Below are positions 5,796 through 61,791 of a stretch of DNA of 64,000 bases, piece by piece. Below the pieces are notes generated by a model that was not told the origin of the DNA, did no database searches, and saw nothing but the letters and a program-made list of their open reading frames with translations. Numbering within the stretch: position 1 is the stretch's first letter; the number at the start of each line of letters is the position of its first letter. This DNA comes from a virus. Where the stretch lies: positions 23,843 through 87,842 of the IMG/VR virus record IMGVR_UViG_3300013127_000002, one strand, 5' to 3'. The translations under genes and the position numbers were made by a program.

Positions 5796-6665
5796 ATGAA
5801 CGAGTACTTTTCCCGCGGTGTCTACGCGGCGCTCACCAAATTGGGGATGAGTCCCGAGGTGCTCGCCGAGCATCATGCTCGGATCATTAACGCCGCGAAG
5901 CGACAAGGTCACAAAGTTCCGACGTTCGCCGAGCTTAACGAGATCCTGCCCCCCGGCTGGGAGAAGAAGTACAAGGGCTCCTGGCAGGAAGCGTATCTCG
6001 GATCCGACTGGCTGAAGCAGCGCAACTCCGAAGTGCTGGAAGCCAAAGAGAGAGCACGTGAGAACGCGGCGTACCAGGCGGCACGGGCACGTCAGTCTGC
6101 GTCTTCTTCAAGGCGGCGGCAGTCGACAGGTGCGTCTTCTTATGACCCGTGGGAGGAGTACGCACGAAAGGAGTACGCACGAGCTCGTGAGGCAGGGCGG
6201 TGGGAGGAGTACGCACGAGAGGAGTACGCACGAGCTCGTGAGGCAGGGCGGCAGAAAGCAAAAGAGTCTCCTTACTCCAAGGCTTGGGAGGACTACAAAG
6301 CTCGAAGAGCGGAAGAGCAGGCCGAGTACGCGTCGCAGAAGGCAGAGAATGACCGCAAGTGGGAGGAGTCGAAGCGCCGCTGGGCCGAACAAGACGCCGA
6401 GTCGGCCCGTCGCTACGCTGCGCGCCAGGCCAAGTACGATGCCGCGCAGAACGCAGCAGCCGCACGACGTCGTGCGGCGCAGAGTGAGTTCCACAGTAGC
6501 TTCGAGGGTGGAGGAGGTTCGTCTTCCCGCCCGCGCTCTGGTGGTACTAGCGGCTTGGGTCTCGCCATCGGGTTAGGGGTGCCACTCACCGTAGCCCTGG
6601 CGTATGGACTGTCCGGAAGTTCGGACAGCAGCAAGAAGAAGGCTAAGAAGCGGGCAGCTCGCTGA
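5796..6665 (+). CDS. KLG-tagged protein with tandem Glu/Arg/Ala repeats
   Basis: 289 residues from ATG 5796; a longer frame from 5667 overlaps the previous gene and is not preferred. The N-terminus NEYFSRGVYAALTKLGMS is the KLG tag. Residues about 119-152 hold two 17-residue repeats (WEEYARKEYARAREAGR, then the same with K to E), within a long charged, predicted helical region rich in E, R, K, A and Y. The C-terminus has a Ser/Gly linker, a hydrophobic helix (GLGLAIGLGVPLTVALAYG) and a lysine-rich tail. The last 23 bases overlap the end of the convergent 6643 gene. Function unknown. Confidence 0.6.
   Translation: MNEYFSRGVYAALTKLGMSPEVLAEHHARIINAAKRQGHKVPTFAELNEILPPGWEKKYKGSWQEAYLGSDWLKQRNSEVLEAKERARENAAYQAARARQSASSSRRRQSTGASSYDPWEEYARKEYARAREAGRWEEYAREEYARAREAGRQKAKESPYSKAWEDYKARRAEEQAEYASQKAENDRKWEESKRRWAEQDAESARRYAARQAKYDAAQNAAAARRRAAQSEFHSSFEGGGGSSSRPRSGGTSGLGLAIGLGVPLTVALAYGLSGSSDSSKKKAKKRAAR
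6149..6250 (+). repeat. Two 51-bp tandem repeats inside the 5796 gene
   Basis: Copies at 6149-6199 and 6200-6250 differ at one base (AAAG versus AGAG), which changes one Lys to Glu. The unit is in frame and itself contains two shorter EYARxxEYARAREAG-like elements. The near-identity implies a recent duplication. Confidence 0.9.
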
Positions 6666-7209
6666 TAGCCTTCTTGAACCACTCCCTCACTTTTGCTTCA
6701 GGCCAAGCGTACAGGTAATCGGGCCCGCTCAACACCTTCACGTAGTGTTCGATGTCCGGGGACCATCCGTACTTCTTTTCTATTTTGTATTCGACGAGAA
6801 ATGCCTCTCTCTCGAACCTGAAGCGGAACCATGAACGCCACGCAGGAAGTGGTACAAATAGATAGAGGAACAGGAACGGCCACATCCCGATCGACGCCTC
6901 TCCCAGACCGAGCGCCGCGCACTGTTTCACGTGGACTGTTTCATGTTTCAGGGTGATGTAGTCACTGAACGTGACGTGCTTCAAGTCGGTGGACTCGGGG
7001 TACGCGATGAGGGGGCCGAGGGTTGTGGCCCGTCGCATGAAGTCGCTTTTCTTGAAGCCCCGCACGACCCAGAAGATCCAGTCTATTGCTTTCCAGAACC
7101 AGCGGTGACGTGCCTTTGTCGTTACAAAACCGCCGTACCTTTCGTCGAGTTCGTCACAGTCGAGGTTGAACCAGGTCTGGATCACCTCGGGATTTTGAGG
7201 AAGAGTCAT
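6643..7209 (-). CDS. Membrane-associated HExxH metallopeptidase-like protein
   Basis: A 188-residue protein with start at 7209 (CAT on the plus strand). Around residues 89-93 it has HETVH, a zinc metallopeptidase-type HExxH, in the context LKHETVHVKQ, which resembles a family of small phage and bacterial proteins (HE-x-x-H-x-x-Q followed by a hydrophobic stretch and an acidic E-x-E-A-Y-like motif). Here a hydrophobic segment (MWPFLFLYLFVPLPAW) follows, then EREAFLVEYK, where a Glu could be the third zinc ligand. It sits alone on the minus strand, convergent with the 5796 gene. Peptidase activity is inferred from the motif; a role in lysis or virion processing is only a possibility. Confidence 0.6.
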   Translation of the reverse strand: MTLPQNPEVIQTWFNLDCDELDERYGGFVTTKARHRWFWKAIDWIFWVVRGFKKSDFMRRATTLGPLIAYPESTDLKHVTFSDYITLKHETVHVKQCAALGLGEASIGMWPFLFLYLFVPLPAWRSWFRFRFEREAFLVEYKIEKKYGWSPDIEHYVKVLSGPDYLYAWPEAKVREWFKKAISELPAS

Positions 7210-8635: not shown

Positions 8636-8860
8636 ATGGAGAAAAAGATAGTCGATACTCCGGAGATCCCTCCGGGACTTGAAGACCACTTGACTGTCCG
8701 CAACGGTAAGGTGGTACGGAAGAAGTGGGACATGTTGGGAATTCCTTCTCCGCAGGAAGCGGTCGAGGCGCTCAAGAGGGCGGGCATGCTTACCGACGAG
8801 GACGAGCGCCAGGTGCTTAAGGAAGCGGGTATGCTCGACGATGAGGAGGAACATGAGTAG
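8636..8860 (+). CDS. Small acidic hypothetical protein
   Basis: 74 residues, ATG 8636 preceded by GTGAGGAGG. The C-terminal half contains two similar helices (LKRAGMLTDEDERQ and LKEAGMLDDEEEHE), an internal repeat of about 16 residues. No catalytic motif. Its TAG stop overlaps the start region of the 8853 gene by eight bases. Function unknown. Confidence 0.6.
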   Translation: MEKKIVDTPEIPPGLEDHLTVRNGKVVRKKWDMLGIPSPQEAVEALKRAGMLTDEDERQVLKEAGMLDDEEEHE

Positions 8861-9044
8861 CGCGGAAAGATCCCAGAACAAGAAGCGCAACGCGATCGGC
8901 GACCAGTACCCTGATGTCACGCACATCCGGTCGGAGGAGAACAAGACCGAGGCCCTGTGCAAGGCGTCGTCCCCGAAGGCGATGCGGTTCGTTCCGGCCG
9001 ACAAGGCGACGTGCCGGTCTTGCCGCAGGAGGAACGCGAAATGA
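8853..9044 (+). CDS. Small basic protein with terminal CxxC
   Basis: 63 residues from ATG 8853, which follows GAGGAGGAAC; the ATG at 8841 is four codons upstream and less well placed. The sequence is polar and ends ATCRSCRRRNAK, a single CxxC with a strongly basic tail. One CxxC cannot bind zinc alone, so the protein may dimerise or pair with the 9041 product. Its TGA overlaps ATG 9041 (ATGA). Function unknown. Confidence 0.55.
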   Translation: MSSAERSQNKKRNAIGDQYPDVTHIRSEENKTEALCKASSPKAMRFVPADKATCRSCRRRNAK

Positions 9045-9238
9045 GCTACCGGTGCAAGAAGTGCAACGCGATCGTTCCCTAGAACGCGGCGATGCTGCGT
9101 ATCACCAAGTACAGGACCGTGAAGACCGCGGAGTCCGAGAGGCTGTGGCGGGAGATCGAGTCCGAGATGTCCGTCTGCGCCGAGTGCTTCAAGACGCACA
9201 CGACGCAGGACCTTGCCGAGAAGTTCAAGAACGGTTAA
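9041..9238 (+). pseudogene. Zinc-ribbon mini-gene interrupted by an in-frame TAG
   Basis: From ATG 9041 the frame reads MSYRCKKCNAIVP, then TAG at 9080-9082, then continues open for 51 codons to TAA 9236-9238. The two halves together make a typical four-cysteine ribbon: CKKC before the amber codon and CAEC near residue 50. If the amber is read as an amino acid the product is 65 residues. If not, a second ATG at 9092 would give a 48-residue protein with only one CxxC. Other genes in the window end in TAG (for example 773 and 8636), so general recoding of TAG is unlikely. Readthrough, a host suppressor, or a recent mutation are the options. Confidence 0.55.
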
Positions 9239-9434
9239 CCTGGAGTCAACGGGTGTCCAACCCGTCTCCATAATCGGCACTGCGCCCCGGGGAGGGTTAA
9301 ATCCCCGCGAGGTTGCCGGAGGGGTCGAGCGGTAAGTGAGCGTGCACGCGTTCCGGACACGAAGTCGCGCAACGATCCGATGAACCCCTTCCGCACTTCG
9401 CGACGAGCGGTGCCCCCTACACTCAGGAGGCGAG
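9239..9434 (+). ncRNA. Structured non-coding stretch, candidate ncRNA
   Basis: No convincing protein is encoded here. Strong pairings are visible: GGAG (9242-9245) + ACGGGT (9249-9254), loop GTCCA, ACCCGT (9260-9265) + CTCC (9266-9269), ten pairs with a 3-base bulge; and TGCCGGAGGGG (9314-9324) with CCCCTTCCGCA (9385-9395), ten of eleven pairs including one G-T. GTCGCG (9364-9369) can also pair with CGCGAC (9398-9403). The size and closing stem recall a tRNA, but no proper anticodon or T arm could be built. It could be an untranslated leader, a decayed tRNA locus or a small RNA. Confidence 0.35.
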
Positions 9435-9761: not shown

Positions 9762-9839
9762 TACCTGAGATTCCACGAGAGACAAAAGAGAGAAAAAACC
9801 AGCAGCGCGGTATGGCACCGTGCGGGAAGGGAAATCGCT

Positions 9840-10457
9840 ATGGCAAGATTCTTCACGAACACAGCCCCCGGGATCATCGTTCAGACGGACCCCTACACCT
9901 TCGTTCCCGTGGGCAATGAGCTGGGGCGACACGTGCGTGTTGCGTGCGGCAAAAAGACGCCGCCGGACCTGGTTCGCAAGAAGGTGGAGGGGATGCAGTT
10001 CGAGCGGGCGTTCATCGAGCGCGGGAGCTACATGCGCCTGAAGCCCAAGCTGATCGAGGAGGGGGTCGGAGGAGAGGAGCAGCCGGTGCGGCAGGAGCAG
10101 AAGGACCGCGTTCTCCTGGTCAACGAGCGGGAGAACGACACCATGAACGCGATCGTTCTGGTGCAGCTGCCCAGCGGCTACAAGGGCGACAGCGTCATCA
10201 GCGTTCACGACAAGGCGCAGATCATCGCGGACTGTTTCGTCGGACACGGCGTGAGAGGCTCCCTCGGGGTGAGCCACCACGTCCTCGCCTACATGGCACC
10301 CGGCGGGGAGTTGCGCGGCCAGGTCACGGGCCACCGGGTCAAGAACCCGTGCAACCGTTGGGTCTTCGACGGTGAAGAGATCGTCTGCATCGAAGGTGGC
10401 GAGGACGTGTTCTACAACGCGTCCGAACACACCGCCCGCCTCGACACCCTCCCCTAG
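9840..10457 (+). CDS. Hypothetical protein, last gene of the plus-strand run
   Basis: 205 residues starting at ATG 9840 (GGGAAGGG upstream). Mixed alpha/beta composition with no membrane segment, signal peptide or catalytic motif that I recognise. The stop TAG lies in a short CCCC/GGGG inverted repeat (10451-10464) that it shares with the convergent gene at 10454. Function unknown. Confidence 0.55.
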   Translation: MARFFTNTAPGIIVQTDPYTFVPVGNELGRHVRVACGKKTPPDLVRKKVEGMQFERAFIERGSYMRLKPKLIEEGVGGEEQPVRQEQKDRVLLVNERENDTMNAIVLVQLPSGYKGDSVISVHDKAQIIADCFVGHGVRGSLGVSHHVLAYMAPGGELRGQVTGHRVKNPCNRWVFDGEEIVCIEGGEDVFYNASEHTARLDTLP

Positions 10458-10750
10458 TTCGGGGGCATCAACTCTTCGAAGTCCATTTGACGAGGAGGCT
10501 TCCCATCGGGGGAGCTTTCTTTTGCCTCGCCGTCGATGATGATCCCCCGGGCAGTGAGCTTGACGCGCTGGAGGCGGTGAGTCTCACCGTCGGTCATTTC
10601 GATGAAGCCTTGCACGTCCGGGTGTGCAGCATCGATCTCGATGTTCATTCTCCGTACGTGCCCGAGGAGCTTGCCGCCCGGGCTAAAAAGAAGGGCGTCA
10701 CTGATTAGGCCCGTCGGACTCTGGATCCGGTACGTCCCGTTTTTCAACAT
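10454..10750 (-). CDS. Small hypothetical protein
   Basis: 98 residues, distal gene of the minus-strand block; it overlaps the upstream membrane-protein gene by about 50 bases at its 5' end. Mostly beta-strand-like sequence (TYRIQSPTGLISDALLFS, GHVRRMNIEID) with an acidic C-terminus. No catalytic motif. It overlaps the convergent 9840 gene by four bases. Function unknown. Confidence 0.5.
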   Translation of the reverse strand: MLKNGTYRIQSPTGLISDALLFSPGGKLLGHVRRMNIEIDAAHPDVQGFIEMTDGETHRLQRVKLTARGIIIDGEAKESSPDGKPPRQMDFEELMPPN

Positions 10751-11030
10751 TGGCGTTTCCTTTGTTGTAGTTGAGTGCCGCCATGCGGACGAACTTGTCG
10801 ACGTCTGCCTGTCTGCTGTTGAAGGAAACAGCGACGAATCCCATGACGAAGACGATGCCGACCATGAAGGCCGAGAGAGACCAGCCGATCTCGTCTTGCT
10901 TGACGAGTGCTACGATTGCCATTGCGGCGAGCATCGCGTCCACCACGAAGAACGCGATGAACTTCTTGCTGGCATACCATGCTTTCTCGAACACCTCACG
11001 AGTCAGCTCTCTTTTTTCCATCTTCGTCAT
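10698..11030 (-). CDS. Small membrane protein with two transmembrane helices
   Basis: 110 residues starting at 11030 with AAGGAG seven bases before ATG. Two hydrophobic segments are clear: FIAFFVVDAMLAAMAIVALV (about residues 24-43) and LSAFMVGIVFVMGFVAVSF (about 52-70). A basic N-terminus and a polar C-terminal tail flank them. A holin would fit the size and topology, and an exported endolysin lies about 2.3 kb upstream in the same block, but they are not adjacent and nothing specific to holins is visible. Confidence 0.55.
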   Translation of the reverse strand: MTKMEKRELTREVFEKAWYASKKFIAFFVVDAMLAAMAIVALVKQDEIGWSLSAFMVGIVFVMGFVAVSFNSRQADVDKFVRMAALNYNKGNANVEKRDVPDPESDGPNQ

Positions 11031-11046
11031 GGGTCGTCTCCTTGTT

Positions 11047-11286
11047 TCAGTGGGATTCCACCGTTTGTGGAAGCACGTGTTCCTTGATGGTGACAGTATA
11101 CGTCCGCGGCTTCGCCCTCACCACCATTCCGAGTTCCTGGTCCCACTCCAGCCCGCGGTCGATGCTGTAGATGACATCGAAGATGTCAGGCTCCTTCTCC
11201 ATCGACTGGCGGAGCCTGCCCAGTGTCTCGATCAGGTTGTCCATCACCTTGAGCATCGAGTCCTTCATTTCCACCGTCAGCTCCAT
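11047..11286 (-). CDS. Small hypothetical protein
   Basis: 79 residues starting at 11286 with CAGGAGA before ATG. The N-terminal half is helical with heptad-like leucines (MLKVMDNLIETLGRLRQSME); the C-terminal half is beta-like. Its first 101 bases overlap the 3' end of the 11186 gene in a different frame, a long overlap by the standards of this genome. Function unknown. Confidence 0.45.
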   Translation of the reverse strand: MELTVEMKDSMLKVMDNLIETLGRLRQSMEKEPDIFDVIYSIDRGLEWDQELGMVVRAKPRTYTVTIKEHVLPQTVESH

Positions 11287-16170: not shown

Positions 16171-18421
16171 CAGCTGTAAAGAAGTTGTCAACCACGTTTT
16201 CGAATCCCAAGGATAAAACGATCATCTTTCCGTAACCTGCTGGCCCATACGGTTTGCCTGATGCGACTTTCTTTTCGAGCTTGTCCCAATTTGAGGCATG
16301 CGCTTCCGGGTTTGAGGTCGAGGTCCAGAGCCGGGTGTCCAGGATCGCAATGACCCCCTTGTCGGACGTCGAGCGGATAAGTCGTCCTGTTCCTTGTCGG
16401 AGGTCGAAGATCATCTTCGGAACGTAAACGTCGTGGAACCAACTCTTCCCCGCGCGCTTGACCAACTCCTTGATGACGGCGTCAGACTGGTTGGGGAAAG
16501 GCAGCTTGGGGATGATGACGAGTCGCAGCTTCTCTCCTACGACGTCGATCCCCTCCCAGAAACTCTTCAGCCCGAATAGCACGCTCTTGGGAGTGTTTCG
16601 GTACTCTTCTAGAAGGGCTTCCGCGCCTTCATCCTGTTGTGCGAGCAGGTTGAGCCCGTAACTCTTGAAGTGCTCTTCGGTCATTGCCTTCACGTCTCGG
16701 AGGTCTGTCCTTGCCGTGAAGAGTACAAAGGCGTCTCCGTTCGAGTACCGGCACAGCCGGAGGATCTCCATGGAGACGGCCTTCAACCAGTTCTCGTGGT
16801 TGGCCTGGTCAGACGGATTCGGGATCGGCGTGTCGTACGTGTAGCGGGGCGTGTAGAGCCGCGCCTGTCTGTTGTAGTCGAAGGGGCTCTCGTAGAAGCG
16901 CTCGACGGTGTTGTATTTGTCTAAAGTGGTGATTGTTCGGGTTCTTGGAGTCGCGGGTACCCTCGGAAGAGGTGTAAGATCCAACCCTATGCGTTTCTTG
17001 AAGTAGTCGAACTTCTTGTTCACGGCCAGCGTGGCGGAGACGAATGCCTTGGTATTGATCTTCTCCAGCGCGGCCTGTACCAGCGGGCCAATTTCGATGG
17101 GTGTTCGGATGAGGTGAGCGTCTCCGTTGCGCTCTTCGTACAGGAGAACAAATTGTTTTTCAGGATCAGGTGTCTGGAGCTGTAGGACCAACTCTTCAAG
17201 GGACTTCATCCTGCTGCACATTTTCTTCAGCTTGCTTATGCCCAGGAAGACGTGGGCCTGCGAGTACTCCCCTGTCGCAGTATTGGACATCTTGCTCATG
17301 GTGGTCTCGAACAGCGCACTCATGACTTTGAGTCGGTCCGTGTAGTCTTTCATCATGGAGGCCGCGACTTCTCGCAGCTTGTCCTGATTGATGACCTTGG
17401 AGGATGAGTCCATGTAGTCCCGCGCATACGCGGCTAAAGACGTTATGCCGTCTTGAAGTTTGGAGAGTCCTCCCAGCAGGTTCGAGGCGGACGTGTTTGC
17501 CAGATCCTCGATCATCATTTCAAGGTCGTGGTCTTCCCGGAGAATCCGCATGGATTTCTTGAAGTGGTTTACGCTGACCGTGTCTGTGTAAGCGGAACGT
17601 ACCGCTTCTTCGAAGTGGTGGGCCTCGTCTACGATGAGAATGTCGAATCTACCGAGAATCTTTTCCCCGTACCGAAGCTGGTAGGCCAGCACGTGGTGGT
17701 TGGTCACGATGATGTTGTAGTTCTTCGGTTTGGGACGACAAGCGATCCGGCACCCGCCCATGTTCGGACAATTGTCGGTTGAGATGTCTGCGAAGTGGTC
17801 GGACAGCTCAGGAAAATCGGACCGCTCGATCCAGGTCCTGAGGACCCCGTACTTCACCCCGGTAGTGATGTAGGCGAGTCTGCGTAGGAGTGCAGCACTC
17901 TTCTCCTTGTTGAAGGGGTTTTTCTTCAACACCTCTGATACGAGGTCCGGACAGAGATAGTTAGTCTTGCCTTTGATGTTGATGAAGTTGAACTTTCCGT
18001 CCGTTTCCGCGTCGAGAGATTCCTCGTCTCCTTCGGTGTTGTTATCGAAGCTGGCGGCAACGTACGGCATCTTCTCTCTCAGAGTTGGCAAGTCCTTGTC
18101 GTAGAGCTGGTGTTGCAGGGTTTTCTTGGCTGTGGCGATGACCAGTCTCTTCCCGGACAGGATTCCGGGGACCAGGTAGCCGTAGCTCTTTCCGATGCCC
18201 GTACCGCCTTCGGCCAGGAGGATCTCTCCGTTATCGATCGCGTGCTCGATGTCCACAGCCAGCCGGTACTGTCCTTCTCTTTTTTCTTTTCCGATGCTGA
18301 ACTTTCCGTCCCGGAACACGTCATCGGCGGTTGTGCTGAATGGTTTTCGGCAGATGGTGCACAGCTTGATGTCTTTGGCTCCGTCCCACGGCAGGACCAG
18401 GCCGCACGTTTTACAAATCAT
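16127..18421 (-). CDS. dinG: DinG/XPD-type superfamily 2 DNA helicase
   Basis: 764 residues. An N-terminal zinc knuckle pair (CKTC at residues 3-6, CTIC at 21-24) is an addition to the usual fold. Walker A is GGTGIGKS (72-79), the DEAH box is at 265-268 (IVDEAHHF), and motif VI is QGTGRLIRS near residue 676. Cysteines at about 157, 218, 224 and 228 lie between motifs I and II, where XPD/DinG proteins bind a 4Fe-4S cluster. Known members unwind DNA 5' to 3' at the expense of ATP and act in repair or replication-fork maintenance. Its start overlaps the stop of the uracil-DNA glycosylase gene (ATGA), supporting a joint repair or replication role. dinG is used as a family name. Confidence 0.85.
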   Translation of the reverse strand: MICKTCGLVLPWDGAKDIKLCTICRKPFSTTADDVFRDGKFSIGKEKREGQYRLAVDIEHAIDNGEILLAEGGTGIGKSYGYLVPGILSGKRLVIATAKKTLQHQLYDKDLPTLREKMPYVAASFDNNTEGDEESLDAETDGKFNFINIKGKTNYLCPDLVSEVLKKNPFNKEKSAALLRRLAYITTGVKYGVLRTWIERSDFPELSDHFADISTDNCPNMGGCRIACRPKPKNYNIIVTNHHVLAYQLRYGEKILGRFDILIVDEAHHFEEAVRSAYTDTVSVNHFKKSMRILREDHDLEMMIEDLANTSASNLLGGLSKLQDGITSLAAYARDYMDSSSKVINQDKLREVAASMMKDYTDRLKVMSALFETTMSKMSNTATGEYSQAHVFLGISKLKKMCSRMKSLEELVLQLQTPDPEKQFVLLYEERNGDAHLIRTPIEIGPLVQAALEKINTKAFVSATLAVNKKFDYFKKRIGLDLTPLPRVPATPRTRTITTLDKYNTVERFYESPFDYNRQARLYTPRYTYDTPIPNPSDQANHENWLKAVSMEILRLCRYSNGDAFVLFTARTDLRDVKAMTEEHFKSYGLNLLAQQDEGAEALLEEYRNTPKSVLFGLKSFWEGIDVVGEKLRLVIIPKLPFPNQSDAVIKELVKRAGKSWFHDVYVPKMIFDLRQGTGRLIRSTSDKGVIAILDTRLWTSTSNPEAHASNWDKLEKKVASGKPYGPAGYGKMIVLSLGFENVVDNFFTAVNFLNEPLTDVNGH

Positions 18422-25155: not shown

Positions 25156-27840
25156 ATGAGTGCAGTTTTCAGAATCAGCCAAGGTGTGCCGTTCCCGCTG
25201 TACGGACGGTCACGTGATGATATCCAGCCGTTCTCGCTTGGTGGGATTGTTACCCTGGATGCCGCGGACCTGACGCATTTCAGCTATGCCTGGGACATTC
25301 TCGGTAAGCCGATCGACGGACTTTCTCCTGTTCTCGTTCCCGCAGGGCCGATTTGCCAACTCCAGGCGGAAGAGCGGGGTGGGTATCTCGTGCGTCTGAC
25401 GGTAGACGCCGGGCTCCCGACCGAGGATGTCTCTATTCTCTATCTTGGTCTCCCGCTGGCGAATAGTGGCCTACCCCTTCCCGCGGTGTACGAGACCAAC
25501 TTCGATAACATCCCTCCTCCGAACGACGGGAGTCAGGGTTGGTGGTACAAAGTCGAGCGGTGGATGAAGTGGGTTGACGCTGCTGTAGGCGCGGGTTTGG
25601 GAGATCTTCCTCAGACGCAAACCGTGTATGTGGACGGCGGTCGTACAGACGTTTACGTAGAGACAGGAACGTTTGCGTTCCCGTACAAGACCATTCAACC
25701 TGCCATACTGCTGGCACAGACTCTTGCGGACGCTGTTGGTGGTGAAGCGTGTGTTCATATTCGTCCGTGGTTATACACAGAGGCGGATGTTCTTCTTCCC
25801 GCCAACGTACATATTGACGGGGAGATGGGCGCGGAGTTGCGTCCGGGAGTTAATGGCAACGGGTTCATTGTTGTGCCCGGGGCGTTTACTGCGGCGCTGG
25901 GTGTAACATTCATTCGGGGCTTCAATGTGGCTGGGCGGGGTCTAGGCAATTACGGGTTGAAGATCACAGATGGGGGAGCGCCGCCTCCTCCGCATGGATT
26001 GCCCACAGTTGCGCATCTTGACGGAGGTATAGGGGCCTACGACCAGGCGTGTCCAGTACTCGTAGAGGCAGGAGCGTTTTACGTTACTGACGCGGGGGGC
26101 ACTTATGGGGATAATACTAATCCCTACGGCGTAGTAGTTCAGCCCGGCGGTTTTGCCCCACCATTTGGGGCTTTCGCTATGGTGGGAAAGTGGAACATTG
26201 GGGCCTGTCTAAGTCCCTTCAAGGTTGGTCCCAATGGGGCGGTAATATCTTCCGGGACGAGTCTTACTGATGACGGATCGAGTCCGTTAATCTCCTATAT
26301 CGAAATCGACGGAGGACTTGCTCCGGACATGGCTCTGTTTATAGGACAGAACCTGCGGCTACAGGGCAGTGCTCTGTCCATGGTTCGTGGTATTCGCAAT
26401 TCAGTAGTAACACTCAATTCTTCGGAAGGTGGAATGGCGTTCTTCGGGGGTTTCCAGGGAGACATCTTCGATTTTTCGGGCAATGTCCTGAACCTGGCGG
26501 GAGGTGTATACCGTACTACAGAGGGTCACGGCCTTGTTTTGGATGGAACAGTGAATCCCGTACACTGTGAGTGTCGCGATACGGATATCACTGCGGACAA
26601 GTATTCTGATCCACTCAACTCCCAGGTTTTGTGGACGCGAGGAGTGGTTACGCTCCAGACGTTCGATACACGCTTCCGGGCGGACCAGCAAGTTGACGGG
26701 CGTGTGATTTCTAGGTTTGATCATATTGGAAATGATGTACAGATCAATGGCGGCATGGTTGAGGGCGGGAGTACCGGGGGAGGACCTCCAGCAACAGTTA
26801 TTGGTATTCTTAGTGGCGGGGTGTGGCTGACGGGTGGTTGTGATGTTGGTACTTACCAGCCTAATGATATCGCTATAAACGTAGCTCCCGGGGCGACACT
26901 ATTTCGGGGACACTCCAATGCTCGTGCCGGGCAAATAGTGATTGCGGGTAGTGAGGTTCCGCTCACATCCACAATGGCCAATCTTGTTTTAGGTAAGTTT
27001 GATGCCCGCACCAAGTGGACGTCTCGCGCTACTCTTGCAGAGGTAGCCGCAGAACCTTTCGAATATGAGCACGGATCCATTGTTGTAGTTACTGGAGGCG
27101 CCAAGCCCCTGGTCTATATCAACTACGGTACCAACGCCGTTCGCGATTGGCGGCTGCTTGGGAGTGACTATGTCCGGGCACAGATGGAGGCGTGTGGGGT
27201 TGTCGATATCTCTACGGGGTTTCCTATAGTAATGCCTATACCGTTTACGGTTACGACCTATCTAGATACTCCTCCTTACGCATTTCTCCCAGGAGGGATA
27301 TTCCGGTTAGATGAGGACGGGGATTATCGTCTGTCCTATAACTTGCCGTTCAAGACCGATTCAGGATTTCTTGCCGGAACATCAGTAGGGGCTCGTTGGG
27401 AATACAGTTTGGATTCCGGGGCCAGTTGGAGTGCGATTACTCAGACGACCACTTTCGATACCGTGCACGGGGATAGTCATGATAGTGGTTCTTTGAGTCT
27501 CCCTCCGTATGAGGTTTTCTTGTCATCCCGGATGTGGTTACGTGTGGTGGGGTTCCATACTATACCCACGGGCGTAATTGCTCCGTCGTTGGTAAACCAT
27601 AACACCTCAGGAATAACGCCGCCCGCAGACCCAGACCCCAAGAACTGGGCATGGGCCAGAATCGAGCGGGGATCAGTAGGTGGGAGTGGAGGAGGGGCTC
27701 GCCCAGCGTTCGTCACTGCGGTTGGGAACCCGAATGTTTTGTTGATTCCAGGTGTTGCGGGAGATTTCTATCGTGATTCTTTTGCCGATATTCTTTATAT
27801 TTGTCAGGCTAGTGGGACAGGAAATTGGCGTGTTCTTTAG
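25156..27840 (+). CDS. Tailspike/fibre with beta-helix-like body
   Basis: 894 residues, ATG 25156 after GAGGAGG. Residues 1-125 look like an Ig-like or attachment domain. From about residue 155 (TQTVYVDGGRTDVYVETGTF, then PYKTIQPAILLAQ) the sequence is typical of pectin-lyase-like right-handed beta-helices in tailspikes, with repeated short strands and Gly turns. The end (GDFYRDSFADILYICQASGT, then GNWRVL) is a short tip motif also present at the end of the 27935 product. It probably binds or degrades a host surface polysaccharide. The gene is visibly more A+T-rich than the baseplate genes, in keeping with exchange of fibre modules. No catalytic residues can be assigned. Confidence 0.7.
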   Translation: MSAVFRISQGVPFPLYGRSRDDIQPFSLGGIVTLDAADLTHFSYAWDILGKPIDGLSPVLVPAGPICQLQAEERGGYLVRLTVDAGLPTEDVSILYLGLPLANSGLPLPAVYETNFDNIPPPNDGSQGWWYKVERWMKWVDAAVGAGLGDLPQTQTVYVDGGRTDVYVETGTFAFPYKTIQPAILLAQTLADAVGGEACVHIRPWLYTEADVLLPANVHIDGEMGAELRPGVNGNGFIVVPGAFTAALGVTFIRGFNVAGRGLGNYGLKITDGGAPPPPHGLPTVAHLDGGIGAYDQACPVLVEAGAFYVTDAGGTYGDNTNPYGVVVQPGGFAPPFGAFAMVGKWNIGACLSPFKVGPNGAVISSGTSLTDDGSSPLISYIEIDGGLAPDMALFIGQNLRLQGSALSMVRGIRNSVVTLNSSEGGMAFFGGFQGDIFDFSGNVLNLAGGVYRTTEGHGLVLDGTVNPVHCECRDTDITADKYSDPLNSQVLWTRGVVTLQTFDTRFRADQQVDGRVISRFDHIGNDVQINGGMVEGGSTGGGPPATVIGILSGGVWLTGGCDVGTYQPNDIAINVAPGATLFRGHSNARAGQIVIAGSEVPLTSTMANLVLGKFDARTKWTSRATLAEVAAEPFEYEHGSIVVVTGGAKPLVYINYGTNAVRDWRLLGSDYVRAQMEACGVVDISTGFPIVMPIPFTVTTYLDTPPYAFLPGGIFRLDEDGDYRLSYNLPFKTDSGFLAGTSVGARWEYSLDSGASWSAITQTTTFDTVHGDSHDSGSLSLPPYEVFLSSRMWLRVVGFHTIPTGVIAPSLVNHNTSGITPPADPDPKNWAWARIERGSVGGSGGGARPAFVTAVGNPNVLLIPGVAGDFYRDSFADILYICQASGTGNWRVL

Positions 27841-53342: not shown

Positions 53343-54391
53343 TCAAGACAGAGGTTACGCAGGAATGTATCCCGGTCGAACTCGATGACGGGATGAAGTA
53401 CCAAATCACGACGACTGTGGTTGTTCCGGGAGAGCTCCCGGACGTTTACCTTTTCGTGCACGACGTGATCGATCTAGTGGACCCCAAGCAAGATGTTTTC
53501 GTGCGGGTAGCTAATCCCTATGATCTTGAAAACATCGTCACTACCCGCGCGGCGGCTATCACCAACGGAACCAAGAGGTACCGGGCCAACGCATTTGTAG
53601 TTAGGTACACAGACGTAGAGTTGGCAGTTCAGGCGAAGCAGGCTGTTCTTCAGCGTGTCGATACCGCAGTAAACACATGGTACGTGTTCCGGTCCGAGTT
53701 TGAGGTTCCTGCTCCGCCTCCGCCATTGCCGATTCTGTACCGGCCGGAGACTGATGAGGAATATCTCCAGACTCTCGTTAACGCGTACAAGGCGGCGATA
53801 GAAGCCCGAGTCGCGGCCGAGGCAGATGCTGTAACCGCACAGGCTGCGGTTACGACCGCAGAGGCAGAGGCGGCTGCCGCTGCGGCCATGGTTCTCATCT
53901 ACGAGAAGGAGACCACCTTCTGTCAGACGGCGAGGACTACGTACTGGTTGAGTCCTTTGGGTTTGCTGAGCGGTGTATCGAATCTGTCCAGCAAGTCTCA
54001 ACAGTTCTTCAACGACTCGAAGACGATTTACAACACGTACGGAGCGTGTGGAACGTATCCTGCGTGTTCTGCTCTTCCAGGCACATGGCAGTACGATCTC
54101 CACGCAAAACTCCTGGTTATGGAGGCGGCGCTTACAGGTACAGGCGGATGGTCTACGAGCGAACCGTACATGGGTCTCATGGATACGGTTCTCGCCTCGT
54201 TCTGTAGTGCGGCGACAGTCGGGTACACAACGGCGGTCAATACCAAGAGCTCCAAGGATCTGGCAGTGGCCAATGCCCAGACAGCAAAAGAAAAGGCGGA
54301 CGCGAGTGTCGCGACCGCCCAAGCAAACGAAGATGCAGCTCTCGCTGCCATTATGACTGCGTGTCCAACGTTCGATATCTCCTCAATATGA
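53339..54391 (+). CDS. Hypothetical protein with duplicated domain, coiled coil and extra C-terminal part
   Basis: 350 residues. Residues 1-125 are paralogous to the 52968 product. After a Pro-rich hinge (PAPPPPLPILYRP), an Ala-rich helix (AAEADAVTAQAAVTTAEAEA) forms a coiled coil. Residues about 195-295 contain four cysteines in a Ser/Thr/Gly-rich region, and a second Ala/Lys helix (AKEKADASVATAQANEDAAL) ends the protein. The two helices could pair in an antiparallel hairpin. Structural role likely; no family recognised. Ends convergently with the 54383 gene. Confidence 0.6.
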   Translation: MIKTEVTQECIPVELDDGMKYQITTTVVVPGELPDVYLFVHDVIDLVDPKQDVFVRVANPYDLENIVTTRAAAITNGTKRYRANAFVVRYTDVELAVQAKQAVLQRVDTAVNTWYVFRSEFEVPAPPPPLPILYRPETDEEYLQTLVNAYKAAIEARVAAEADAVTAQAAVTTAEAEAAAAAAMVLIYEKETTFCQTARTTYWLSPLGLLSGVSNLSSKSQQFFNDSKTIYNTYGACGTYPACSALPGTWQYDLHAKLLVMEAALTGTGGWSTSEPYMGLMDTVLASFCSAATVGYTTAVNTKSSKDLAVANAQTAKEKADASVATAQANEDAALAAIMTACPTFDISSI

Positions 54392-55705
54392 CTTGATGGT
54401 GTCGTACGGAGTTCTATTTACTGAACTTAAAGGACTGACTGTTTTCGACACGAAGGGGATCCTTCCGTGTGAGCGGTAAACATCAGTCAAGTCTTTGACG
54501 TAGAAGGACCAGGACGCGATTTCGTTTGACCGCTTGTAGTAGAAATACTGCCGGAAGCCGTCGTCTTCGTAGCGGGTGTAGCGTGCGGCGTAGGACGTCT
54601 TGTGCCAACCACTTCCCATTGTCGGACTTTGTGAAAAGCTGGACACGACAGCCAACAACGCTTTCAGGCGTTTTGTGATCCGCAGCTTTTCCGGGTAACT
54701 TGTGCCGTATCCGCATTTCTGGATGATTTCCTGCGCCTGCTTGTACGTCATTGGGCGCTCTTCTCCGGTTCGCATATTGCCCAGCATGTATTGCAGTCCG
54801 TCACGGTACCGGAAAGTCAGGTAGTGCTCTTTCCCTTGGAAGTAACTCGATAGCCGTCCGGAGTTCTTTAACAAGTAAGCCAGTTGCGCATTCGTGTACG
54901 GGATGTTGCACACTTCCAGGATATGTTCGTAGTATGCGTCTTCGGACTTGTCGTAGGCTCCTTCGCACCATCTGGAACGATCGTTTGGGCAGCAGTGATT
55001 TACCAGACAGATTCCGCACACGTTTTTTCTAAACCGGTCCTTTTGTACCCGGGACTGTGCTGCCTCTTTTCTGGCTTCTATGTTCCGGTCTATTGCATCG
55101 AAATTTACAGACCCGACGGCGAGTCTCCTAGACGAGAAGCTGGTCTGGCCCGCGGTGTATATGGGGCTGATGAAGGTGTATCCTTCGAGCTGCATCTTGA
55201 GATGTTTCCAGCGCTCCAGTGTATCCATTATTTCTGAAGGTACGCGTTGTGTCTTTTGTGCTTGGTATATCTTCTTTATCTCGCAATGTAGTTCCGGATT
55301 TTCAACTTCGTTGAGACATTCGCTACACCCCAAGATCAGTTTGTGCGGCAGGGTACACGCGTCCTGTATGGTTTTCGGGTACATGAGTTTGTACTCCCCG
55401 TCTATGACGGCCGGGACTCGCTGTGCTTTCCCTTCTGTGAAACCCGGAGACATGATGTTGATGTCGTCTGTGATGGTATATCCCTGTTGAGTATTGAAGC
55501 CGAAACGCAACACAGGAAAGAACGCATCGAGTGCGGGCGACTGTAGCAGTCTCTTGGCGTTTTCCGCCTTCAGCGTGTCGCGGAACAGGAAGTACAGGTT
55601 GCGCAGGGTGTCCATGCCGTTTCCTCTGTGCCTCCGCCAGGTTTCACGACCGCTGAAGGCGTACGTGAATATCTTGTCGGGAATTTCGGCAGGTATATCA
55701 GCCAT
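54383..55705 (-). CDS. Cysteine-rich unknown, partner of the reverse transcriptase
   Basis: 440 residues, start at 55705; its start overlaps the end of the reverse-transcriptase gene by eight bases, so translation is coupled. Cysteines cluster as GCSECL (127, 130) with HC (140-141), and as CGICLVNHCC (230-239) with WC at 247, suggesting one or two zinc sites. Basic and aromatic residues are frequent (KTSYAARYTRYEDDGFRQYF). I recognise no known effector domain. By context it may be the effector, a nucleic-acid-binding partner or a chaperone of the reverse transcriptase. Confidence 0.6.
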   Translation of the reverse strand: MADIPAEIPDKIFTYAFSGRETWRRHRGNGMDTLRNLYFLFRDTLKAENAKRLLQSPALDAFFPVLRFGFNTQQGYTITDDINIMSPGFTEGKAQRVPAVIDGEYKLMYPKTIQDACTLPHKLILGCSECLNEVENPELHCEIKKIYQAQKTQRVPSEIMDTLERWKHLKMQLEGYTFISPIYTAGQTSFSSRRLAVGSVNFDAIDRNIEARKEAAQSRVQKDRFRKNVCGICLVNHCCPNDRSRWCEGAYDKSEDAYYEHILEVCNIPYTNAQLAYLLKNSGRLSSYFQGKEHYLTFRYRDGLQYMLGNMRTGEERPMTYKQAQEIIQKCGYGTSYPEKLRITKRLKALLAVVSSFSQSPTMGSGWHKTSYAARYTRYEDDGFRQYFYYKRSNEIASWSFYVKDLTDVYRSHGRIPFVSKTVSPLSSVNRTPYDTIKSY

Positions 55706-56828
55706 GGAGTTCTTTCTCCCACGCTGGTTTGGCTTCCTGGAAGGCGACCATCAGCTTGTTTCCCTTTTCGGGGTTGATGAACTGCACGAACCCTATTCGG
55801 CCTTGGAGGTAATCCATGAGAGCCTGCGGGGTTTTCTTACCGGCCTTCTTGTGCTGAGAACTCAAGCCGTGCCGGCTTGCATTGGTAATGATTGCACGTA
55901 ACTTCCGGTATTCTTCCTTCGGGATGTTCAACTTTTTGTTGATGACTATCCCGAGTACGCGTTTCCGAAAGTAGCTGTGCGGCGTACGTACCTTCTTTGC
56001 GTTTACGCGGTAACCGCATTCCCGGATGATTCCCCGCAGCCGGTACACGATTGCAGTTCGGTCTTCCTGGGACAGGAGTTTCCCGCAGGTGATGATGAGG
56101 TCATCCGAGTACCGCGTGTAGCACCAGTTCCATGGCGGCGTCAGTCCTGCGGTCAGGTCCAGTTCTGCGAGGTAGCTCTTTATGGCGCCGTCTAGGCGCC
56201 GATCCGCTACCAGGTTGCAGATGGCTCCAGATGCGGGGCTGCCTTGAGGTATCACGTCTTTTTTCCGGGTTCCATCCGGACCTATGGACACTGTAGTCAA
56301 GTTGGAGAGCAGGTCGGATACGTAGTGGCTGTATCCTATTTCCTTGAAGCAGTTGCGTACCCAGGACTTCTTGGTTGAATGAAAGAAGTCCTTGAGGTCG
56401 ATCTTGATGAACGTTCCGTACTTGGGACAGTCGTGCTTTTTCGGGGATACAGCATTCGGAAAACTGTCGCAGATAGGACAAGGCCGCAGATGTTGCATGA
56501 CTGCGGTTCGGATTGACCTCTGTTTACGGTATGCCGAAACGTGATCCCCCAGAGGTTCCTGCAACGGATTCAAGAGCCGCTTATTCAGGAGTTTCAAGGC
56601 ACGCTTCATACTCCCCTGTGGGGCATGGATGATCCGGGTTTTGTTGTGTGCCTTGGGAATGGTCCACGACTTGTAGAGGGTGTTCCGGTGCAGTATCAAA
56701 TGCCAGAGAGTCTTCGTCCGGTACTTCAGCAGACTGGCTAACGTGTAGTCGTCTACTACGGCTGGATTGGGGAGTCCGTCCGGGACGCTGATTTTCGTGA
56801 CTGATGATTTTCCGAATCCAACAGGCAT
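55698..56828 (-). CDS. Reverse transcriptase (retron/group II-like) with zinc-finger-like insertion
   Basis: 376 residues, start at 56828 behind AAAGGGGAT. RT blocks in order: SWTIPKAHNKTRIIHAP (55-70), the SIRTAVMQH block (105-113), motif A GTFIKIDLKDFFHS with Asp144, IPQGSPASGAICNL (193-206), the catalytic TRYSDDLIITC with Asp242/Asp243, and VLGIVINKKLNIPKEEYRKL (291-310) of the thumb. These fit retron, group II intron and unknown-group RTs rather than diversity-generating-retroelement RTs. Between His113 and motif A lies an insertion with Cys117, Cys120, His132 and Cys134, an apparent zinc knuckle. All catalytic Asp residues are present, so it should synthesise cDNA. No template RNA gene is evident next to it. 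Confidence 0.88.
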   Translation of the reverse strand: MPVGFGKSSVTKISVPDGLPNPAVVDDYTLASLLKYRTKTLWHLILHRNTLYKSWTIPKAHNKTRIIHAPQGSMKRALKLLNKRLLNPLQEPLGDHVSAYRKQRSIRTAVMQHLRPCPICDSFPNAVSPKKHDCPKYGTFIKIDLKDFFHSTKKSWVRNCFKEIGYSHYVSDLLSNLTTVSIGPDGTRKKDVIPQGSPASGAICNLVADRRLDGAIKSYLAELDLTAGLTPPWNWCYTRYSDDLIITCGKLLSQEDRTAIVYRLRGIIRECGYRVNAKKVRTPHSYFRKRVLGIVINKKLNIPKEEYRKLRAIITNASRHGLSSQHKKAGKKTPQALMDYLQGRIGFVQFINPEKGNKLMVAFQEAKPAWEKELHG

Positions 56829-57366: not shown

Positions 57367-58749
57367 CTACTCCAGTTTCACGATCCGCGAGCCCATCGCG
57401 GGGTGGGATTTTCGACCTCCTACCAGGACCCAGATGACGGGGCACGGCGGAAGCCACGCAGGACAAGGACCTCCAGGAGACTCGATGGGGGCTTCTCCGT
57501 CTGTGAGTATGATCACCACGTCCCAGCTTTTTCGCATGGGCGGGAGTTCCTGCACGGAGTTATCCATGCGGGTTTCCAGTCCGAGGATGTACTGGAACGG
57601 AGGATTGAAGTCTGTCCCCCCACATGAATACCTGTAGTGGTTTTTGAACTTTTCCGGGTCTAGGTCGAGTTGCTCAACGTGTTGTACCGCGGCGTCAAAG
57701 TAGACGAGGGTGGCGCTGGCTCCTCTTTCGGCTTGCGAGATTCCTTGGAGCTCTCCCATGAAGGTCTGATAATCGTCATCCCCGATGGACCCCGAACTGT
57801 CTATCAGGACCGCCATGTTGAAGCTGAATTCCTTCTGATACCCGGTGTACGGCTCTATCTCCCCGGTCAGCGCCAAGGGGAACAGCGCAGGATTGGGGTA
57901 CGCGGAGCTCTCGGCGAGCTTCGATGACAGGGCCGTCTTCAGGTATCCTCGGAAGACTTGAGGCCACGGGACTTTTGGCTCTACGAAAATGCTGTCGATC
58001 CATGATTTCAGATGTGCGGGTACGGTTCCTCGGGATCTCTCGGTCTGCTCGATGGCTTTCTTGATGAGCATGTTGGATTCGCCGTGTGCAGTACTGATGA
58101 TCCTCTCGATTTCCGCGTCTGTCAGATCCTGAAGAGGTACGTTGATTACCGGATCCAGCATGGGTGCGGGACATTTCCCGACCAGGTCGGAAAACCACTG
58201 TGGGTAGGGCTTTCCAGGCTCCCAACCGTCGTTTTTCATGTCTTCCAGGAGTCGTGCGAGGTACTCCTCGAAGGTTTCACCTTTCGGGTACGGTTTCGGT
58301 TCTCGGTGTTCTGGGAGTCGGAATCGTTTGAACTCCTTTCCGTACGTCGAGAGTCCTGCCTCCTGTACGAAAGGTCGCAGAACCGTGTCATTAGCTGCCA
58401 TGTCTGCGGCTGCGTTGACGATCTCGTGGATCTGCTCGTATTTCTTAGGGTCCGCCATTTGAAGGCGGATTCGAAGGATCCGCTCCAAGTGTTTCAGTAC
58501 GAGGTGGGCGACCTCGTGCAAGACGACCAAGATCTGGAAGGCCCGCGGCTGTTCTTCATACCAATCGGAATCCCACAGGAACTTGTAGTGTCCCTCCTGG
58601 GTCAGCGTGACGGCACAGGTTTTCAGGTTCGGCACAGGCATTCGACCACACCCGTTCAACACTCTTCCGTAGAAGTTGTTGCCGGCGCGCGGATTGCAGG
58701 AGCAGAGCCACTGCAAAACGTCGTGCATAGCGTTAGCTTTACTTTCCAC
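57367..58749 (-). CDS. vWA-domain protein with N-terminal HExxH metallopeptidase-like domain (DUF2201-type)
   Basis: 460 residues from GTG 58749, seven bases after AAGGAG. The N-terminal domain carries HEVAH (78-82) in VVLHEVAHLVLKHLE, as in the putative metallopeptidase domain of DUF2201 proteins. The C-terminal domain is a von Willebrand A fold with an intact MIDAS: DSSGS (317-321), CGGTDF with Thr379, and LTDGEA with Asp417. Such proteins pair with MoxR-type AAA+ ATPases, here encoded at 60559-61791, to remodel or activate a partner. Phage copies exist but targets are unknown. The gene is first of the minus-strand run that includes the RT. Confidence 0.85.
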   Translation of the reverse strand: MESKANAMHDVLQWLCSCNPRAGNNFYGRVLNGCGRMPVPNLKTCAVTLTQEGHYKFLWDSDWYEEQPRAFQILVVLHEVAHLVLKHLERILRIRLQMADPKKYEQIHEIVNAAADMAANDTVLRPFVQEAGLSTYGKEFKRFRLPEHREPKPYPKGETFEEYLARLLEDMKNDGWEPGKPYPQWFSDLVGKCPAPMLDPVINVPLQDLTDAEIERIISTAHGESNMLIKKAIEQTERSRGTVPAHLKSWIDSIFVEPKVPWPQVFRGYLKTALSSKLAESSAYPNPALFPLALTGEIEPYTGYQKEFSFNMAVLIDSSGSIGDDDYQTFMGELQGISQAERGASATLVYFDAAVQHVEQLDLDPEKFKNHYRYSCGGTDFNPPFQYILGLETRMDNSVQELPPMRKSWDVVIILTDGEAPIESPGGPCPAWLPPCPVIWVLVGGRKSHPAMGSRIVKLE

Positions 58750-59796: not shown

Positions 59797-60566
59797 CCTC
59801 CTCCCTCGAAATCCTCGTCCAGAAAGCACCCGTCTTCCAGAATTACCTGGTAAAGACGGCGTCCCGGGAGTCCACCGCGCGTCAGCTTCTGTTGAACAGC
59901 GAGGGACATGCGGCGGCGTCTCTCTATATGGCTGTGCGCGTTCTGTACGGGGTAGACATCCTGCACTGGGAGCCGGAAACGATCTGGATGACTTTGCAGC
60001 ATGACGGGATCGAGCTTCCAGTAGTTTCGCGCAACAAGTTGATGGCGGCGATAACACTACAACTCAATCCGGCGTTCTATTGGGACAACATCGTCTTTCA
60101 GCATACGGTCCAGACACTCAACGACGAGTTGACCAACCCCGAGTCGATACAGGAGTGCCATCCTGCGCATATGGCGTGGGCGGTACACGAGGCAGGGTTC
60201 ATCCGGGGGTTGGACCCGCACGGTCACGAGATCCCGGAATTCGACGAGGACGTGCAGTTGTATATCGCGGTCTGTCTCAAGCGAGCAGGTTTTTTGATTC
60301 CCCCTAAAGAACTCGACAGCGAGGAGATTCAAAAGACCTTGGATTGTCAGTACCCCGATTGCCGGTTACCGTTAGAAGCAAAATACGCACGTAGCGAGGT
60401 GCGCGAAGCCTGGAACAAACTGCCCAAGAACAGGCTCCAGCATACTGAGTTTGCTGAAGACTCTCTTGGGGTACAGTTGTCCAGGCTTGCGTCCTGCTAC
60501 GTGTATGTCGAGATGAAGGCGGAAGAGCTGGCGTCTGAGATTAGTGACCTGAAGGTTACTACTTGA
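59793..60566 (+). CDS. Hypothetical virion-region protein
   Basis: 257 residues from GTG 59793, overlapping the upstream stop. The N-terminus (LEILVQKAPVFQNYLVKTAS) is amphipathic and loosely recalls the KLA/KTA tags of the left-end small proteins. The rest is helical, with C-x4-C (CQYPDC, near residues 184-189) and a helical C-terminus. No membrane segment. It ends convergently with the MoxR gene (8-base overlap). Function unknown. Confidence 0.5.
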   Translation: MTSSLEILVQKAPVFQNYLVKTASRESTARQLLLNSEGHAAASLYMAVRVLYGVDILHWEPETIWMTLQHDGIELPVVSRNKLMAAITLQLNPAFYWDNIVFQHTVQTLNDELTNPESIQECHPAHMAWAVHEAGFIRGLDPHGHEIPEFDEDVQLYIAVCLKRAGFLIPPKELDSEEIQKTLDCQYPDCRLPLEAKYARSEVREAWNKLPKNRLQHTEFAEDSLGVQLSRLASCYVYVEMKAEELASEISDLKVTT

Positions 60567-61791
60567 GCCCGGAATCTACCCTCTTCTGTCCGTCGTCCGC
60601 GCGTTTGTGTATCTCGACCCATTCAGGGAATTTGTTCATGGCGATCATGAGCTTTTGTCGGTATTCGATAGCGTTGTTTTCCTTCGATATGGTGTTCAGT
60701 TGGGTAAAGATCGACATGGACATGTCCGGAGTGAGTGTCTTCAGGAAGAGGACGAAGTTTCGAGCAACCTCGTCTACCGGGGGCTGGTCCGCAAAGAGCA
60801 TCATGAGCACCCCCTGCATAGCCTCGTGAAGAACTTCTTGCCGGCCGCTGTTGATGAGATCCACGATCTCGTCTTGCACTTTGGGGAACTTGAACAGTAC
60901 TTCTCTGGGGTCAATGGATCGGTCTTCGTCTCTCAGGAACGCGACGAGTTGGTCGGCGTGTGGAAGACCGATAGACGCGGCGTAGCGCATCCGCGCAAAG
61001 TCGCTTGTCAGGTCCATCCGTTCTTTTTCCATGAGGTACATGTCGAGGGAAATCGTTTGGATGGTCGCGGGACACGCGTATTGTTTCTGTGCTTTCTGCC
61101 CCTTGAAGTCGTAGAACATCGTTGGGTGCTGTTCGTAGAATTTGGTGAGGAGCGGATGACACGGCCGCGCGTTGCCCAGTGCGTGAAGGTCTGTCTGGTG
61201 AAACTCAGGAGTGATTGCGTGGCGCTTCCAGACCTCGTAGCTCGGGATAGCGTAAAACATCTTCAGCCGTCGGCGGAGTGCCATGTTGCTTTCGATCTGT
61301 GTAACCGCGTATTGTGCTGTATTCGGGTTCATCAGCCCAAGAACGAGGCAGTCATCCGGAAGCTTGTAGTTGAACATTTGACGATCTTCGATCAAAGAGA
61401 AGAACATGCTGATCGCGTGTTGCAACCCCTGGTTGATTTCGTCAAATACCAGAATGGCCTTCTCCCCTGGTTTAGGGAAGACGGACGGCAGGACAATGTC
61501 GAAGAAACCCCGGTCCTGATGTTTCACGGACGGGATACCCGCGCTCATCAGGCCCCAGTGTGCGGTTCGGACGTCGCAGATCTTTGCTCCGTATTCCCGG
61601 CTGAGTTGTCCACACAGTTGGCTCTTCCCGATGCCGGCCTCCCCGACCACGAGGATGGCGCCGCGGTGCTGGTTGTACTTCCACGTCAGGACTATCTGTT
61701 TCTTGATTTCTTCGATGCTTGCCCGGGGAATACTGTACAGGTCCGCGTACTTCTGGTCGTTCTGGTCGTGTTCCGGTTCTTTCTTTGCCAT
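60559..61791 (-). CDS. MoxR-type AAA+ ATPase
   Basis: 410 residues, start at 61791 with GAGGAGA upstream. Walker A is GEAGIGKS (50-57), Walker B is ILVFDEINQ with Asp117/Glu118, sensor 1 is GLMNPNT, and MALRRRLKMFYAIPSYE provides the arginine-finger region. The pattern, with RTAHWGLMSAGIP after Walker A, is that of ATPases that partner vWA/DUF2201 proteins. It should form a hexamer that remodels a substrate with the vWA protein at 57367. Two plus-strand genes separate the two, so they need separate promoters or long antisense-overlapping transcripts. Confidence 0.85.
   Translation of the reverse strand: MAKKEPEHDQNDQKYADLYSIPRASIEEIKKQIVLTWKYNQHRGAILVVGEAGIGKSQLCGQLSREYGAKICDVRTAHWGLMSAGIPSVKHQDRGFFDIVLPSVFPKPGEKAILVFDEINQGLQHAISMFFSLIEDRQMFNYKLPDDCLVLGLMNPNTAQYAVTQIESNMALRRRLKMFYAIPSYEVWKRHAITPEFHQTDLHALGNARPCHPLLTKFYEQHPTMFYDFKGQKAQKQYACPATIQTISLDMYLMEKERMDLTSDFARMRYAASIGLPHADQLVAFLRDEDRSIDPREVLFKFPKVQDEIVDLINSGRQEVLHEAMQGVLMMLFADQPPVDEVARNFVLFLKTLTPDMSMSIFTQLNTISKENNAIEYRQKLMIAMNKFPEWVEIHKRADDGQKRVDSGLK

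Follow-up and report, generated by a model that had tools for sequence, protein, structure and literature searches.

The coat protein of phage Q-beta is an example of stop-codon readthrough, in that case of UGA. Reassignment of a stop codon has been reported in the TAG-recoded Lak and crAss-like phages, and huge phages have been reported to carry the release factors RF1 and RF2 (PMC7162821). With respect to leakage at a stop codon that is still read as such, Val-Pro is among the C-terminal dipeptides that favour slow termination and tmRNA tagging (PMC3985003), and near-cognate tRNAs can pass a stop at which RF1 is depleted (PMC6207430). We describe here a small gene of a phage that is interrupted by an in-frame TAG. 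The stretch of DNA analysed, referred to as the window, comprises 64,000 nucleotides and corresponds to positions 23,843-87,842 of the linear, 87,842-base IMG/VR virus record IMGVR_UViG_3300013127_000002. Genes for the terminase large subunit, baseplate, tail fibre, helicase, ribonucleotide reductase and dNMP kinase were recognised in the record, which is that of a tailed phage. Positions are those of the window unless they are given as positions of the record.

Translation of the interrupted gene gives MSYRCKKCNAIVP up to the TAG and NAAMLRITKYRTVKTAESERLWREIESEMSVCAECFKTHTTQDLAEKFKNG after it (Table 1). A reading made from the sequence alone had described this TAG as lying between two intact CxxC knuckles in a frame that remains open to TAA, and both its sequence and its coordinates proved exact. 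The gene belongs to a cassette of overlapping small genes; the TGA of the gene that precedes it overlaps its ATG as ATGA, and translation of the two is therefore probably coupled. Family searches gave no match for the preceding gene. The 196-base non-coding stretch on the 3' side of the interrupted gene (9239-9434) has a predicted fold that is more stable than that of shuffled sequences (z -2.3; 3/200 as good), and it matched no Rfam family, contained no tRNA and had no second copy in the record.

Table 1. Position and strand of the interrupted gene, its parts, its neighbours and the phage release factor
Feature	Position	Strand	Remarks
Interrupted gene, 65-codon four-cysteine zinc-finger protein	9041..9238	+	13 codons, TAG, 51 codons, TAA
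Start and stop of the interrupted gene	ATG 9041; TAA 9236-9238	+	
In-frame TAG, codon 14	9080..9082	+	Column of the relatives: A, A, V, D, P or P
First CxxC knuckle, CKKC, before the TAG	9053..9064	+	Invariant in the family alignment
Second CxxC knuckle, CAEC, after the TAG	9176..9187	+	Invariant in the family alignment
AGGAGG ribosome-binding site of the interrupted gene	9027..9032	+	8 nt before ATG 9041
Internal ATG, possible start of the downstream 48-residue fragment	9092..9094	+	Without a ribosome-binding site
Preceding small gene, CK...CRSC	8853..9044	+	63 aa; probably zinc-binding, from its sequence
First small gene of the overlapping cassette	8636..8860	+	Own stop is TAG
RF1-type peptide chain release factor	Record 16731-17480 (window -7111 to -6362), outside the window	+	249 aa

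The coding evidence on the two sides of the TAG is that of one gene. Under a codon-usage model trained on long genes of the same phage, the 51 codons after the TAG scored 11.3, which is the 82nd percentile of true coding windows and was reached by only 1.0% of open wrong-frame windows. Third-position G+C was 0.92 before the TAG and 0.94 after it, compared with 0.69 for the genome. Because the sole good ribosome-binding site is the one at 9041, the codon signature is shared by the two parts, and both halves match one protein family (described below), we conclude that 9041-9238 is a single interrupted gene. The same observations uphold the sequence-only reading in its central proposal, a four-cysteine gene split by TAG. 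Conservation is not confined to the downstream 48-residue product, as six relatives hold both knuckles in one open frame.

We examined whether TAG serves as a stop codon elsewhere in this phage. It terminates 21 of the 76 called genes (28%), and the total coding score was best with the standard code (3475, compared with 3353 when TAG was treated as a sense codon). General recoding of TAG was rejected on these grounds, in agreement with the earlier statements that several genes here stop at TAG and that the codon is not generally recoded. Back-up stops within five codons were not in excess behind genes ending in TAG (5/21) relative to those ending in TAA (5/20), and where TAG seems to interrupt further frames of the record, the two parts look like adjacent genes in the same frame. 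A search for a suppressor tRNA in the rest of the genome had been proposed as a check; in about 114 kb of the virus population (this record together with a 26-kb extension), part of an incomplete genome, ARAGORN detected no tRNA, and no suppressor tRNA with a CUA anticodon was found. ARAGORN at lowered thresholds returned only noise, and lax Rfam models found no tRNA in the window, its left flank or the searched parts of the second assembly, IMGVR_UViG_3300013133_000004.

The phage carries an RF1-type release factor of its own, encoded 16 kb upstream of the interrupted gene. The protein has PCRF and RF-1 domains, with PPT where RF1 has its PxT motif and with GGQ intact, and its best matches in the PDB were bacterial RF1 (E 8e-42), with RF2 at 6e-26. 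The match starts at about RF1 residue 107-110, the greater part of the first RF1 domain of bacteria being absent. Relatives of the factor, 38-56% identical, were found in 37 IMG/VR records, many of them of huge phages. According to the PxT-motif rule, the phage factor should read UAA and UAG. Such a factor would be expected to enforce termination, which argues against programmed readthrough of UAG; at the same time, a regulated version with early leakage and later shut-off becomes conceivable. A phage that uses the standard code and has an RF1-type factor, and in which no tRNAs were detected in the sequence searched, makes the purpose of phage release factors testable.

The family of the interrupted gene was reached through these records. 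Close protein relatives were absent from the viral_contigs, genome_contigs and phages collections. When 35 of the 37 records were searched with the read-through protein, a weak but full-length match (E 0.013, one record) was obtained in IMGVR_UViG_3300033407_000001. That sequence, used as query, clearly matched two relatives, with E values of 2e-11 and 7e-11; two further ones were recovered by an alignment search, these four being in 3300037042_004723, 3300015360_000024, 3300032053_004772 and 3300033388_002430, and a sixth relative was found in LR756511.1, a 595-kb phage. All six have the pattern MSFRCxxC...CxxC (MFRC in LR756511), each in one open frame, and the column that corresponds to the TAG is a sense codon in 6/6. 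In an alignment of six sequences, M1, S2, R4, C5, C8, R25, E38, I39, E42, C46 and C49 were invariant; the window's copy has kept 4/4 cysteines and all of the invariant columns. Other routes were unproductive: a hand-written consensus had no match in the phages or plasmids collections and was dropped, a degenerate two-knuckle DNA pattern run over viral_contigs returned 36 stretches and 0 relatives, and neighbouring genes used as baits found no relatives. Weak matches in Brevibacillus, Variovorax and Arthrobacter phages were left out of the family, a weak match to phrog_3036 belongs to another place in the record and not to this gene, and Pfam, NCBIfam and PDB sequences held no convincing family match.

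A profile of five relatives, made without the window's copy, placed 9041-9238 (with the TAG as X) best in the six-frame translation of the record, with an E value of 1.1e-5, and pointed to this locus and no other, the next best place scoring 5.4 bits. The halves alone scored 12.9 bits (13 residues) and 12.5 bits (48 residues) with the same profile. One of the relatives had been picked by its likeness to the window, and the profile search was redone without IMGVR_UViG_3300033407_000001; the locus again came first, with E values of 0.02 in the translated record and 4e-4 as a single protein. The window's copy is 26-31% identical to most relatives, and a 12-residue stretch of the relatives, from V-C to W-R, aligns with a gap in it, so that orthology is remote. 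Homology to the family, as judged by these alignments, is remote but consistent, and we class the window's copy as an interrupted copy of the MSFRCxxC...CxxC family and not a working member. The gene was detected in 3 of the 35 large-phage records with an RF1-like factor that were searched, many of which are fragments; with that reservation, it appears to be an accessory and patchily distributed gene, and because of this distribution its loss would be tolerable. A by-product of the search is a small, so far unnamed zinc-finger family common to large phages.

An AlphaFold2 model of the read-through protein, made with the six sequences, had a pLDDT of 78.6 and contained a knuckle, a hairpin (19-28/35-45) and a helix (47-63) that begins at the second CxxC; folding of the single sequence gave a pLDDT of 58 and was unusable. 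Matches of the model to solved structures were weak, the best being a FYVE domain (Z only 3.8), and the best E value of Foldseek against the PDB was 0.24, also weak. The order of knuckle, beta hairpin and helix in the model suggests a treble clef more than a zinc ribbon. Of the four-cysteine zinc ribbon that had been named from the sequence, the four cysteines stand, and the ribbon may give way to a treble-clef-like layout.

Several other features were observed in the record. A 188-residue protein encoded at 6643-7209 (-) has an HETVH motif (HExxH) and may be a metallopeptidase, to judge from its sequence, with no good family match. At 57367-58749 (-) there is a VWA and metallopeptidase-like DUF2201 protein and at 60559-61791 (-) a MoxR-like ATPase, a pair known in other large phages and bacteria. 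Outside the window, at record 5877-7160 (+), lies an adenylosuccinate synthetase-like gene (phrog_1211, PurZ type), and the phage DNA may on this account contain 2-aminoadenine in place of adenine. Also outside, at record 9808-11157, a repeat of about 19 bases, CCTGCGGGGCGAGTAGGAG, occurs in five copies at successive gene junctions (expected 0.01); it combines a hairpin, a stop and a ribosome-binding site, and several small genes thereby end in ...ALRGE-stop. The second assembly is 99.97% identical to this record over 37 kb and extends the sequence by 26 kb. Ten of the 11 differences between the two are within 38 bases (27438-27475, in gene 25156-27840) and 8 are silent; such clustering suggests a mis-assembled repeat or local recombination more than random error. 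A reverse transcriptase (RVT_1, E 5e-20) is encoded at 55698-56828 (-) and adjoins 54383-55705 (-), to which no function was assigned; blastn found no template-repeat copy of the variable site 27438-27475.

We consider it probable that the TAG arose recently as a real nonsense mutation, whether fixed or polymorphic, and that the zinc-finger gene which it disrupts is dispensable. The gene is intact in six relatives and is disabled in the window's copy by one change. A single nonsense change would have produced TAG at codon 14 of the family gene; ribosomes would then start at 9041 and terminate at the TAG by means of the host RF1 or the phage RF1-like factor, the product would be a 13-residue peptide, the second half would not be made in a useful amount, and the zinc site would be lost. 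As the frame is otherwise free of damage, the mutation should be recent, or the population should be mixed and the TAG be carried by one of its alleles. The remaining codons allow 576 single substitutions, of which 53 would introduce a stop codon or remove a cysteine. The gene shows none of these 53, and from this the neutral divergence since the event is estimated at about 4% for the 50% point, with an upper bound of about 17% for the 5% point. Very recent decay had been one of the options offered by the sequence-only reading, and with intact relatives and an otherwise undamaged gene it fits best. We infer from the same evidence that the product is lost, that the gene is dispensable, and that the TAG is a biological allele rather than a consensus error. 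There is also evidence on the other side, however: a read-through codon, or an error in the consensus, would show the same lone clean defect, and the orthology to the relatives is remote. As a nonsense allele in an accessory gene of a phage, the case would be ordinary.

A consensus or assembly error would leave the population with a sense codon at 9080-9082 and a whole gene. The defect is indeed one base-level event in an otherwise perfect gene of which all relatives are intact, and the second assembly does not cover the locus, beginning only 18 kb further to the right; a leftward extension of the record was sought by DNA search and nothing was found. Nevertheless, the two assemblies of the population differ at only 11 of 37,051 positions, in a comparison that lies outside the locus, and only 1 of the differences is isolated, the remainder forming the cluster described above, so that isolated consensus errors are rare. 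We therefore regard such an error as unlikely. Re-initiation is very unlikely. Ribosomes stopping at the TAG could restart at ATG 9092, which is 9 nt past it and opens the 48-residue frame, to make a protein with one CxxC and a new role; this ATG, however, has no ribosome-binding site, and the first knuckle is as strongly conserved as the second, its half scoring 12.9 bits and M1, S2, R4, C5 and C8 being invariant.

Useful readthrough, through leaky termination or in an amber-suppressing host, would yield the full-length protein conditionally. It would account for the coding signature that continues after the TAG, and the nascent chain ends in Ile-Val-Pro, of which Val-Pro is a slow-termination context (PMC3985003), so that low-level leakage at the TAG is possible; furthermore, since the record is incomplete, a suppressor tRNA could sit in the missing part. 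On the other hand, TAG is present in 0/6 relatives, no stimulatory RNA structure was found after the TAG (z -0.54), no tRNA was detected in the approximately 114 kb searched, 21 other genes rely on TAG as their stop, and the phage RF1-like factor should raise termination at UAG. The proline before the stop is conserved in relatives that have no TAG, which argues that the context is not special to the TAG. Programmed readthrough or host-dependent suppression, as proposed from the sequence alone, is thus disfavoured by the lack of TAG in the relatives, by the absence of structure and tRNA in the sequence searched and by the RF1-like factor, and we regard it as quite unlikely. One could also envisage the TAG as a conditional switch, in which some ribosomes read through Val-Pro-UAG and make the zinc-finger protein as long as the phage RF1-like factor is not yet produced, or where the host has an amber suppressor or a weak RF1, and in which the gene is shut off once the phage RF1 accumulates. 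This version is most improbable; if true, it would tie a phage release factor to the control of a particular gene and constitute a new means of gene timing.

The nonsense allele can be compared with the systems described at the outset. As in programmed stop-codon readthrough, for example that of the Q-beta coat protein, an in-frame stop is followed by a downstream coding extension, but here the stop is not shared by the relatives, no stimulatory structure was detected behind it, and a functional short product is likewise missing. TAG lies inside a coding frame in the TAG-recoded Lak and crAss-like phages as it does here, but here only one gene is concerned, TAG ends 28% of the called genes, and no suppressor tRNA was found in the sequence searched. 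The release factor resembles the release factor 1 of huge phages (PMC7162821) in having PCRF and RF-1 domains, PxT and GGQ. With the MSFRCxxC...CxxC family, the window's copy shares the length class, the MS[FY]RCxxC start, both CxxC knuckles, R25, E38, I39 and E42, whereas the relatives are uninterrupted and have a longer segment past the first knuckle than the window's copy, in which codon 14 is TAG.
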